Assembly: GCF_009831625.1 (NCBI RefSeq)
Contig: NZ_WUUS01000006.1
Span: forward strand, 1-64,000
DNA from: Halobaculum saliterrae
Lineage (GTDB): Archaea > Halobacteriota > Halobacteria > Halobacteriales > Haloferacaceae
Reading direction: 5' to 3'
DNA length: 64,000 bases
A program made the translations under genes and the position numbers. The notes below the pieces were generated by a model. It worked only from the letters and a program-made list of their open reading frames with translations, was not told the DNA's origin and searched no databases. Positions 24,669 through 27,866 of this stretch are shown one piece after another; the first letter of the stretch is position 1, and each line of letters starts with the position of its first letter.

Positions 24669-25265
24669 ATGGACGAGAAGACGGAGGAACTCCGCGAAAT
24701 CTTCCTCGACACGACGGGCGGCGACACCGTCACCGAGCGTCAGGAGGAGGGGCACGGCTCGCTCGCGGACGAGAGCGACGCCGCCGAGCGGCTCGCCGAC
24801 CTCGTCGCGCGGATGCGCGAGCGCTTCGAGTTCGACTCCGACCGCTCCGACGAGGACCTCGTCCGGGTCGTCCGGCTGTACTTCCGGGGCGCCGACGACG
24901 CCGCCATCGCCGCCGACCTCGACGTCGACGAGGGGACGGTCTTCGACGCGCGGATGGACCTCCATCTCGTCCGCGACGGCGACCGCGAGGCGCCGTTCGA
25001 CCTCTCGCGGCTCCGCTCGATGCACGTCGATGACGTGCCGATGGCCGATCGGGCCGCCGAGCTCGGCGTCGACGAGACGACCGTCGAGCACTACTCGACG
25101 GTCGTCGCCACGAACCTGGAGTCGACCCGGGCGAACGACCGCTTCCGCGACGAGTTCGCCGACCTGCTGGCGGAGCAGGACCTCAAGGGCGGCCACACCG
25201 AGGACGCCCGCGAGGACGGGCTCAGGGAGGCGGCCGAAGACATCGAGACGAACGTTTCCTTCTGA
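24669..25265 (+). CDS. cmi4: Cmi4-like regulator (conditioned medium-induced protein 4 family)
   Basis: 198 acidic residues. The N terminus MDEKTEELREIFLD and the middle RADDAAIAADLDVDEGTVFDARMDLHL match the haloarchaeal family named after its induction by spent medium. The middle and later segments (VPMADRAAELGVDETTVEHY) look like two HTH-type modules, so it may bind DNA. Name rests on recall of the family and is less sure than the HTH assignment. Confidence 0.7.
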   Translation: MDEKTEELREIFLDTTGGDTVTERQEEGHGSLADESDAAERLADLVARMRERFEFDSDRSDEDLVRVVRLYFRGADDAAIAADLDVDEGTVFDARMDLHLVRDGDREAPFDLSRLRSMHVDDVPMADRAAELGVDETTVEHYSTVVATNLESTRANDRFRDEFADLLAEQDLKGGHTEDAREDGLREAAEDIETNVSF

Positions 25266-25332: not shown

Positions 25333-25509
25333 CCCGTTCATGCCAAACGGCCGCTCGCTCGCCAGCCTATCGGCTGGCTCGCTCGCGGTAGGATCGCAGG
25401 TGACTCCGCGACGGCACCGTGACTGCACTGCCTCCGCACTGCCTCCGCATTCCACTTGTTCTCTTTCCCACGGCGAACGTTCAAATACGAACACGGAACC
25501 ACCACTCAC

Positions 25510-26223
25510 GTGTCCCGGGACAAGGTGTCGTTCACGGACCTCGCGACGGCGACGTACTGCCCGCGCCAACTGTACTACGACCGGCGCGAGGACGACCGCG
25601 AGCCGCCGCCGGAGGCGACCGCCCGGATCGACCTCGCCTTTCGCTATCCCGAGTTGCGGGACCTGGACGACGCGGCCCTGGCGGCCGAACCGATCGATCG
25701 CCCGCCCGAGGAGTACCGCGCGGCGCTCGCTCGGCTGGCCGACCGAGCGGACTGGGAGTCGCTGTCGGATCCGACCGACACGCATGTCCTCCTCGACGGG
25801 AAGGACGCCCGCGGCGTCGCGCACAAGGTGATCGGCGAGACCGGCGCGGACGCACCGCGCGACGACGACGAGAACCCGACCGGCGATCCCCCGGTTCCGG
25901 TGATCGTCTCGCCGGGTGACCCGCCCGAGCGGGGAGTGTGGGAACCGCAGTCGGTGAAGGCGGTCGCGGCGATGCACGCGCTCTCGTGGCAGGAGGGGCG
26001 ACGGATCCGGCGGGCGATCGTCGAGTACCCGACCCACGGCGTCGTCAGGGACGTGTCGCTGTCCGTGCGCCGCTCCGGGACGTACCGACGGGTGCTCCGG
26101 TCGGTTCGGGAGCTGGACGGTCCCCCGGCGAGGCTATCGAGCAGCGCGAAGTGTCGCGACTGCCGTCATCGGTCGAACTGTGGGGTGAAAACACGGAGTC
26201 TCCGGAGCCTGATCGGGCTGTAG
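25510..26223 (+). CDS. solo Cas4-like protein (Fe-S cysteines kept, nuclease core degenerate)
   Basis: 237 residues from a GTG start. SFTDLATATYCPRQLYY is the Cas4 N-terminal signature with the first cluster cysteine (Cys17); Cys215, Cys218 and Cys224 complete the set. Between them the PD-(D/E)xK core expected of Cas4 is not visible: where an EVK strand is expected the sequence reads VPVIVSPGDP. There is no CRISPR array or other cas gene nearby. It probably keeps the fold for another role in DNA or RNA binding. The GTG gives the family N terminus; an upstream frame to 25456 lacks similarity. Confidence 0.75.
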   Translation: MSRDKVSFTDLATATYCPRQLYYDRREDDREPPPEATARIDLAFRYPELRDLDDAALAAEPIDRPPEEYRAALARLADRADWESLSDPTDTHVLLDGKDARGVAHKVIGETGADAPRDDDENPTGDPPVPVIVSPGDPPERGVWEPQSVKAVAAMHALSWQEGRRIRRAIVEYPTHGVVRDVSLSVRRSGTYRRVLRSVRELDGPPARLSSSAKCRDCRHRSNCGVKTRSLRSLIGL

Positions 26224-26248: not shown

Positions 26249-26890
26249 TCAGGGCTCGCTCGCCAGCCACTCGCGGATCTCGTCGACCAGCGGACCCGCC
26301 CGGTGGATGACCCCGCGGTCGGGATCGACGACGGTGCTCTCGCCGCCCGCCGTCTCGCCGCCGTCGAGCACGACCGAACAGCCGTCGCGGATCCGGGAAT
26401 CGAGCTCGGCGACCCGGCGGACGCTCCCGGCGCCCGAGCGGTTCGCGCTCGTCGCGGTGATCGGTCCGGCCACATCCGCGAGGGCGCGTGCGGTCCCGTG
26501 GTCCGGCACGCGGATCCCGACCCGCGGCTCGCCGTCGGTGAGTTCCGCCGCCAGCGTGTCGCCGCGGTCGACGACGACGGTCACGGGACCGGGAAGGAAC
26601 CCCCGCGTGAACCGGGCGGCGCGGTCGCTCGCGGGAACCAGCGACAGCGCCGCGTCGACGCTCCCGAACCCGACCGACAGCGGCTTGTCCCGCGGGCGAT
26701 CCTTCAGCGCGAACACGCGCTCGACGGCGGCCGGGTCCGTCGCGTCGGCGCCGAGGCCGTACACGGTCTCCGTCGGATAGACGACGGACTCGCCCGAACG
26801 GATCGCCTCGGCGGCGTGCTCGATGTCGTCGTCCGTCAGCTCGTGGTCCGACTCGCGATCCGGCTCGTGATTCGGTCCGTCGGCGTTCAT
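26249..26890 (-). CDS. tsaC: threonylcarbamoyl-AMP synthase (Sua5/YrdC/TsaC)
   Basis: 213 residues. VVYPTETVYGLGADA near residue 36 and FALKDRPRDKPLSV near 60 form the nucleotide site, and TSANRSGAGSV (near 150) is the family signature. It makes threonylcarbamoyl-AMP for the t6A base of ANN-reading tRNAs. An acidic leader of about 20 residues precedes the fold. It is the last gene of an operon with the redoxin (7 bases upstream). Confidence 0.93.
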   Translation of the reverse strand: MNADGPNHEPDRESDHELTDDDIEHAAEAIRSGESVVYPTETVYGLGADATDPAAVERVFALKDRPRDKPLSVGFGSVDAALSLVPASDRAARFTRGFLPGPVTVVVDRGDTLAAELTDGEPRVGIRVPDHGTARALADVAGPITATSANRSGAGSVRRVAELDSRIRDGCSVVLDGGETAGGESTVVDPDRGVIHRAGPLVDEIREWLASEP

Positions 26891-26897
26891 TGGAGCC

Positions 26898-27410
26898 TTA
26901 CAGGCGCTCGATCTGCGCTTCGACCTCGTCGTAGTCCGGGAACTCCGGCCACTCGGCGGCGACCCACGCGTACTCGACCGTGTGGTCCTCGTCGAGGAGG
27001 AACACCGCGGGACGGTGCTCGCGGATCCCCGTCATCCCGTCGAGGTCGTGGATCGCGCCGTACTGTTCGGCGACCTCGGCTGAGGGGTCGGAGAACAGTT
27101 CGTAGTCCATCTCGCGCTCCTCGATGAACGTCTTGTGCTCGTACGGAGTGGAGACGGAGACGCCGACGACGGTCACGTCGTCGGTGTCGCCGTGGCCCCA
27201 CCCGCGGTCGCGGATCTCGTTCCAGACGTACGTGGCGGGGAACGCGCCGTCCATCGGGAAGAACACGAGCGCGATCGGCCCGTCGAGGTCCGACAGGGCA
27301 GTGTCGCTCCAGTACTCGTCGCCGACGAGCGGGCGGGTGAAGTCGGGCGCGTCCTCGCCGACGGCGACGTGATCCGCCTCGGGGAGCTCGACGACGTCGA
27401 AGTCGACCAT
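26898..27410 (-). CDS. cysteine-free redoxin (AhpC/TSA-fold protein)
   Basis: 170 residues with the thioredoxin-like peroxiredoxin layout: GEDAPDFTRPL, LVFFPMDGAFPATYVWNEI, VVGVSVSTPYEHKTF, FSDPSAEVAEQYGA and PAVFLLDEDHTVEYAW. There is no cysteine anywhere in the protein; the peroxidatic position, normally C after P-x3-T-x2, holds other residues. It therefore cannot act as an ordinary peroxidase. It abuts the glutaredoxin-like gene with no spacer, so the two probably work together. Confidence 0.82.
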   Translation of the reverse strand: MVDFDVVELPEADHVAVGEDAPDFTRPLVGDEYWSDTALSDLDGPIALVFFPMDGAFPATYVWNEIRDRGWGHGDTDDVTVVGVSVSTPYEHKTFIEEREMDYELFSDPSAEVAEQYGAIHDLDGMTGIREHRPAVFLLDEDHTVEYAWVAAEWPEFPDYDEVEAQIERL

Positions 27411-27680
27411 TCAGGCACCTCCCGCAGCGGCGTCGCCGTAGGTGTTGTCGAGGTACTCCACGATGTTGCCGGACTCCGACATCGTCACGCCGGTGTTCTC
27501 GTCGCGGATCGCGGGCACCGAACGCTTGCCGGTGAGCCGTGCGACCGCGTTCCGGTCCGAGTGCATCGGCTCGACGAACCGCGACTCGTACTCCAGCCCG
27601 TGCTCCTTGAGCTTTCGAACGACGCGCTCGCAGTAGGGACACGCCTGAAGCCGATACAGCGTGATCTCGGGTGTTGTCAT
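27411..27680 (-). CDS. glutaredoxin / GST N-terminal domain protein
   Basis: 89 residues with a single thioredoxin-like fold. The CPYC active site is at Cys14-Cys17, cis-proline in RSVPAI and the glutathione-site-like ESGNIVEYLDNTY. Haloarchaea use gamma-glutamylcysteine instead of glutathione, a likely co-substrate. It is the first gene of the redoxin/TsaC operon; its stop codon and the next ATG are adjacent. Confidence 0.88.
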   Translation of the reverse strand: MTTPEITLYRLQACPYCERVVRKLKEHGLEYESRFVEPMHSDRNAVARLTGKRSVPAIRDENTGVTMSESGNIVEYLDNTYGDAAAGGA

Positions 27681-27866
27681 GGATACGACTACGACGGCGA
27701 GTTTGGTAACGTCTTCGCCCGCGGCACTCCCGTCGTCCGTGCCGCCGTGGCCGCTCGCGGCGCCCTGACACTCGCGTGGGGCGGACAGGGTCGAGCCGAG
27801 AGCGGACGCCGCCGCGCCGCCCGAGGACAACGCTTAATTCGGGGGACCGTCAAGCCGTCGTATCGC

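Follow-up and report, generated by a model that had tools for sequence, protein, structure and literature searches.

We know of no settled function for Cas4 outside CRISPR. Hudaiberdiev et al. (2017) reported that the catalytic motifs are conserved and inferred that all Cas4 proteins are active nucleases (PMC5704561). Alanine mutants of the Asp, Glu, Gln and Tyr residues of Pcal_0546 and of the Asp, Glu, Lys and Tyr residues of SSO1391 are almost inactive (PMC4176176), and the D99A mutant of Sso0001 is inactive (PMC3466216). The Cas4 proteins characterised so far hold a 4Fe-4S or a 2Fe-2S cluster (PMC4176176), and zinc occupies the same kind of site in a related nuclease family (PMC3466216). 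The nucleocapsid protein TP1 of TTV1 is an inactivated Cas4 that has lost the Glu of motif III and now binds DNA (PMC4625639). Cdc45, an essential structural subunit, is an inactivated RecJ (PMC7776575).

The protein described here is encoded in the window, that is, the whole 64,000-nucleotide stretch of Halobaculum saliterrae DNA that was analysed. It shares with solo-Cas4 (DUF83, PF01930/COG1468/TIGR00372; SSO0001, Pcal_0546) the fold, the cysteine layout, a location outside CRISPR and vertical inheritance. Unlike solo-Cas4, it belongs to a clade in which the catalytic Glu is missing throughout and which has a P-x-x-G-V-W loop and a conserved C-terminal tail, its haloarchaeal members being without the entire D-ExK-QhxxY set. 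The CAS-Cas4 proteins of the same archaeal phylum (L190-L219) and the type I-C Cas4 proteins (L220-L223) are homologous in fold and cysteine pattern, but they keep D...E(V/I/Y)K and either end soon past the fourth cysteine or carry an unrelated extension there. The "iron-staple" domains of Dna2 and AddB-AdnAB, the next-best structural matches, have a four-Cys staple around a RecB-like core; they are helicase-linked and catalytically active, whereas the window protein stands alone. TP1 is viral, split and has lost its cluster, whereas the window family keeps the cluster site and is a cellular core gene. RecC contains a dead RecB-like domain with an architectural role and, like Cdc45, offers the analogy of a nuclease fold that lost catalysis and kept its architecture, although the fold of Cdc45 is unrelated to that of the window protein. 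In the open-access literature, no paper on a Glu-less Cas4 family or on a link between Cas4 and Sua5 was found.

Reading frame, cysteine site and fold

The gene, its upstream element and the codons of the four cysteines are the following.

25480-25488, + strand: TATA-like box TTCAAATAC, about 25 nt 5' of the start codon
25510-26223, + strand: open frame of 237 aa with a GTG start, encoding the Cas4-fold protein without catalytic site
25558-25560, + strand: codon of Cys17, predicted cluster ligand 1, in YCPR (C in 104/104)
26152-26154, + strand: codon of Cys215, predicted cluster ligand 2 (C in 104/104)
26161-26163, + strand: codon of Cys218, predicted cluster ligand 3 (C in 104/104)
26179-26181, + strand: codon of Cys224, predicted cluster ligand 4 (C in 104/104)

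The position of the TATA-like box supports the GTG start, and it suggests that the gene may have its own promoter and a leaderless or nearly leaderless transcript, with a short or absent leader. A similar AT-rich element, read by eye, lies at a comparable upstream distance in most of 80 haloarchaeal loci. The nearest relative, that of Halobaculum gomorrense, is 88% identical. A further match in the host genome (C7, E 7e-4) covers a fragment of 58 residues that contains a stop; we took it as chance and not as a second copy.

An earlier note, made from the letters of the sequence, had placed four cluster cysteines at 17, 215, 218 and 224. These positions are exact, the residues lying in YCPRQLYY and in C-x2-C-x5-C, which is the Cas4 arrangement of one N-terminal and three C-terminal cysteines. 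All four are invariant in the site table of 104 aligned proteins, made up of 82 haloarchaeal, 4 deep-branching Halobacteriales and 18 methanogen sequences. An Fe-S cluster is predicted from these ligand residues, and we assume it to be of the 4Fe-4S type. Such a cluster could serve a redox or oxygen sensor, the Cas4 fold then being a protein-interaction platform that binds no nucleic acid. Invariant cysteines would suit this role, as would the peroxiredoxin and glutaredoxin genes that most haloarchaeal loci have at a distance of two to three genes downstream. However, the cysteines are equally invariant in ordinary Cas4, whose cluster is structural, and the redox genes, which are separated from the Cas4-like gene by sua5 and lie on the other strand, do not occur in the methanogen loci; we consider a sensor unlikely.

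The window protein was modelled with AlphaFold2 from an input alignment of 67 named haloarchaeal sequences (pLDDT 91.2, pTM 0.87). DSSP assigns H105 to strand 100-108 and I132 to strand 129-133, which are the expected core strands of PD-(D/E)XK. The top Foldseek match was the type I-C Cas4 8d3l (probability 1.00, E 4e-6, TM 0.58/0.62), followed by Dna2 (5ean), Cas4/Cas1, AdnAB, Pcal_0546 and SSO0001 (entries 4r5q and 4ic1 among them), and the Cas4-like fold proposed in the earlier note is thereby borne out. The protein itself stays below the profile thresholds, with 15.7 bits against a cut-off of 22.7 for PF01930 and 25.2 against 65 (E 1.2e-5) for TIGR00372, and the whole 3.78-Mb host genome gave no match to PF01930; 17 of the 18 methanogen relatives match it.

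Former catalytic residues and the Glu-less clade

Since the haloarchaeal protein is too diverged for Cas4 profile cut-offs, the register of the catalytic sites was set through its methanogen relatives. A search of PDB sequences with the haloarchaeal profile gave no match, and the profile of the 18 methanogen proteins was needed; it matched Cas4 8d3l (E 1.1e-7) and the Cas4-Cas1 fusion 7mi4 (E 2e-7). In the 8d3l alignment, the Glu of VEYK stands opposite the hydrophobic residue of the methanogen sIIK. The haloarchaeal and methanogen profiles in turn aligned over their full length with hhalign (probability 99.9, E 3e-34), with P130..G136-x-P-P-x-x-G-V-W in register. The two alignments therefore place the Glu site at I132 and the Lys site at S134.

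25822-25824, + strand: His105, at the catalytic Asp site (motif II); H in 72/82 haloarchaeal, D in 4/4 deep-branching and 14/18 methanogen proteins
25903-25905, + strand: Ile132, at the catalytic Glu site (motif III); hydrophobic in 104/104, never E
25909-25911, + strand: Ser134, at the catalytic Lys site; S in 68/82 haloarchaeal, K in 4/4 deep-branching, K/R in 14/18 methanogen proteins
25921-25941, + strand: loop P138-P139-x-x-G142-V143-W144 after the former ExK strand, a family hallmark (P139 and G142 in 104/104, W144 in 98/104)
26191-26220, + strand: C-terminal tail TRSLRSLIGL (3.21 bits against a mean of 2.85; model confidence lowest there, 55-65)

No D...EVK block had been visible from the letters, and RecB/PD-(D/E)XK motifs II and III and QhxxY are indeed absent from the window protein: D is replaced by H105, E by I132, K by S134 and QhxxY by K150/A154. 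The VPVIVSPGDP string that had been seen in place of the block spans residues 129-138, which cover the strand bearing ExK in Cas4 and the positions that follow it directly. Only I, L, V, M, F or Y occurs at the Glu site, and chance is excluded because Glu is found there in none of the 104 relatives while all of them keep the four cysteines. Metal-dependent nuclease activity of the window protein is predicted to be absent.

It is improbable that the protein is still a nuclease by means of a relocated acidic site that reaches the metal site in three dimensions, as in some PD-(D/E)XK families. Active-site migration does occur in this superfamily, which counts for such a site, and E172, the only haloarchaea-invariant acid near this region of the fold, is conserved in 86/86 haloarchaeal and deep-branching proteins; it is E in 12/18 methanogen proteins, and no acid is invariant across the clade. 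The acids from which the earlier note thought an intact site might be built, E111 and E139, correspond to E110 and E140 when residues are counted from 1, and their conservation speaks against such a site: E110 lies in the least conserved linker segment (0.98 bits against a mean of 2.85), and E140 is variable (E in 55/82 haloarchaeal and 8/18 methanogen proteins). Moreover, haloarchaea have also lost the Asp, Lys, Gln and Tyr, and those methanogen proteins in which Asp and Lys are kept and the Glu site holds Ile are equivalent to the Glu-to-Ala mutants of Cas4, in which hardly any activity is left (PMC4176176).

In a maximum-likelihood tree of 74 proteins (50 Glu-less, 15 CAS-Cas4, 4 I-C Cas4 and 5 short membrane-anchored Cas4-like), all 50 Glu-less proteins fall on one side of a branch, the support of which is modest (62/89). 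Core haloarchaea group with the deep Halobacteriales at 100/99, and both join sua5-linked methanogen proteins at 82/88, a value that is not conclusive. Among the CAS-Cas4, I-C Cas4 and membrane-anchored proteins of the same phylum, D...ExK is intact in all sequences read. Two traits that do not depend on the tree, the P-x-x-G-[VI]-[WY] loop and the C-terminal tail, are common to the Glu-less proteins and absent from the others. The window protein fits the Glu-less clade by its hydrophobic Glu site, its P-x-x-G-[VI]-[WY] loop and its S/T-L/F-x-S-x-F/L-F/L tail. The short Cas4-like methanogen proteins (L224, L228, L230, L231, L233) have an apparent N-terminal membrane anchor and an intact ExK, and are without the N-terminal cluster cysteine.

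The tail takes the form TRSLRSLLGL in haloarchaea, R-R/K-L-S-D-[LI]-[LF] in sua5-linked methanogens and S/T-L/F-x-S-K/R-F/L-F/L (the SLxSKFF form), at the very C-terminus, in most methanogen members; CAS-Cas4 proteins terminate just past Cys4 and do not have it. Being as well conserved as the core yet modelled with low confidence, the tail shows the pattern that would be expected of a docking motif. A PIP-box was considered and rejected: the Leu is one residue off the QxxLxxFF register, and the in-register residue is often Ala.

We conclude that the window protein is encoded by a core haloarchaeal gene and represents a late, extreme form within an old Glu-less clade to which methanogen proteins also belong. 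The loss would be ancient and stepwise, because methanogen relatives without the Glu mostly keep the Asp and often the Lys/Arg; the Glu would have been lost first, before haloarchaea, and the Asp and Lys later, within Halobacteriales, a direction read from the distribution of residues and unrooted. As judged from these sequences, the clade is an exception to the published statement that all Cas4 proteins keep the catalytic motifs. Either it fell below the thresholds of Hudaiberdiev et al., which is likely for haloarchaea, or the loss of the Glu in methanogen members was not noted.

Gene neighbourhood, distribution and selection

24672-25265 (start approximate), + strand: small HTH-like protein, upstream neighbour, no Pfam match
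26249-26890, - strand: sua5/YrdC, L-threonylcarbamoyladenylate synthase, convergent neighbour (PF01300 2.6e-46, TIGR00057 8.6e-44)

A convergent sua5 gene lies downstream within 1 kb in 54 of 80 named haloarchaeal loci and in all 5 deep-branch loci, and a same-strand small HTH-like gene lies within 1.2 kb upstream in 48/80; one or the other adjoins in 74/80. The small HTH-like neighbour, which we take to be CmI4-like, has the feel of a sigma-70 region 4-like HTH and in deep branches adjoins sua5. Behind sua5 come peroxiredoxin and glutaredoxin genes (26898-27710, - strand, in the window), an order kept in most haloarchaeal loci. In four methanogen loci from three families, the cas4-like gene is convergent and comes after a DUF5612/ACT gene, sua5 and an unnamed gene, in this order; another methanogen family has sua5 on the same strand, about 3 kb upstream. 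Several methanogen families encode an archaeal protein of about 310 aa in the interval from sua5 to the Cas4-like gene (L102:4042-4971, L094:3560-4507); this protein has no Pfam or NCBIfam match. As haloarchaea and some methanogens have the sua5 order in common, the neighbourhood looks older than haloarchaea. The sua5 gene of H. volcanii, HVO_0253, proved essential (PMC3017900); the ortholog of the Cas4-like gene is expected to adjoin it.

This arrangement could mean that the protein is a partner of Sua5 in t6A tRNA modification or acts in another tRNA or RNA step, to which we give a low probability. Sua5 adjoins in haloarchaea, deep Halobacteriales and Methanomicrobiales-like genomes, and the sua5-linked members cluster in the tree (82/88), but shared ancestry suffices for such synteny without a common function. 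The genes are convergent and not co-transcribed, most other methanogens have different neighbours, and Halorubrum and others keep the protein without sua5 in the neighbourhood. Because the genes are convergent and separable, we read the adjacency as inherited synteny and not as a pathway.

The gene is present in 121 of 122 high-quality Halobacteriales genomes, nearly always in one copy, and in 52/53 of the family, whereas cas1 is present in 43 of the same 122; the gene is thus conserved in CRISPR-free haloarchaea, as the earlier note had proposed to check. Its observation that no array or cas1 is near also holds on a larger scale. No cas1 occurs in the whole 3.78-Mb host genome, and no CRISPR array or CRISPR-like repeats within 10 kb, where two weak two-copy repeats were found, the larger in a CxxC-rich (ferredoxin-like) stretch. 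Membership of a CRISPR adaptation module (CAS-Cas4) is ruled out by the lack of a genomic cas1 and of an array within 10 kb. That the protein is an accessory of adaptation in those genomes that do bear CRISPR is very improbable: it is homologous to Cas4, and a passage of PMC12538437 cites work in which solo-Cas4 aids adaptation in Pyrococcus furiosus, but the gene is kept in genomes without cas1, the host genome included. A mobile or viral origin (MGE-Cas4) was rejected as well, since a pattern search of IMG/VR viral contigs found no relatives and the chromosomal neighbourhood is stable. Among the complete genomes of the family, G005 alone is without the gene, although its sister species have it; G005 carries two cas1 and two canonical cas4 genes.

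The gene is under purifying selection. Within the genus and neighbouring genera its dN/dS is 0.20-0.26, compared with 0.16-0.29 for sua5 and 0.22-0.32 for the peroxiredoxin neighbour, and 30 residues are invariant across 67 species. An in-frame stop occurs in about five of roughly 200 genomes; the gene may therefore be dispensable, or the stops may be assembly errors. In Halalkalicoccus paucihalophilus (L138:6001-6645) a TGA stands precisely at the Cys218 codon, and in Halorussus salinisoli (L169:6001-6651) a stop comes right after CPRKLYY; apart from these stops, which are likely to be sequencing errors or single mutations, both genes are intact. A pseudogene on its way out, to which the stops in these few genomes might point, is already contradicted by a dN/dS of about 0.2, the 121/122 genomes and the 30 invariant residues, and can hardly be entertained.

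A possible role in holding nucleic acids

It is highly probable that a catalytically dead Cas4 fold is combined here with a selected core gene. The protein probably holds or guides nucleic acids instead of cutting them, and it could well be a non-cleaving, Fe-S-stapled nucleic-acid-binding adaptor with a partner-docking tail. The cluster would staple the fold, as in Cas4 and AddB. The P-x-x-G-V-W loop, together with the invariant Y173 and R180, would give the old active-site cleft a new lining, and nucleic acid, possibly a single strand or an end, would be bound there and left uncut. The C-terminal tail, conserved but predicted to be flexible, would dock a partner enzyme or complex, so that the protein would act as a holder or adaptor, like Cdc45 and RecC in their complexes.

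Several observations favour nucleic-acid binding. Over 80 haloarchaeal orthologs the net charge comes to +1.6 per 100 aa, whereas five neighbouring families in these salt-adapted genomes range from -2 to -18; a positive value is out of the ordinary for an acidic halophile and characteristic of proteins that bind nucleic acids. The ancestry of the fold, the retained staple and a cleft that was relined instead of decayed argue in the same direction, and a partner is likely because of the conserved tail. Against the adaptor, the net charge of the window protein itself is -0.8 per 100 aa, the neighbours (sua5, the small HTH-like protein, peroxiredoxin and glutaredoxin) name no DNA-processing partner, and in-frame stops occur in the few genomes mentioned above. 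More tentatively, we propose that an ancient, vertically inherited pseudonuclease family spans Halobacteriota and provides a conserved structural subunit of a putative complex that processes nucleic acids; the subunit would combine an Fe-S staple with a relined cleft and a docking tail, and its logic would resemble that of Cdc45 or RecC.

A near-universal haloarchaeal clade without catalysis separates the "binding/architecture" part of solo-Cas4 from its "cutting" part, and this split can be tested in Haloferax volcanii, a genetic model. The clade also calls for caution in profile-based annotation, as TIGR00372 names some apparently dead proteins Cas4 nucleases. Among the Glu-less methanogen members, L100 (4947-5732), L098 and L091 match this "cas4 equivalog" profile; L100 scores over the cut-off (73 against 65 bits), so that public annotation will label such proteins CRISPR-associated Cas4.
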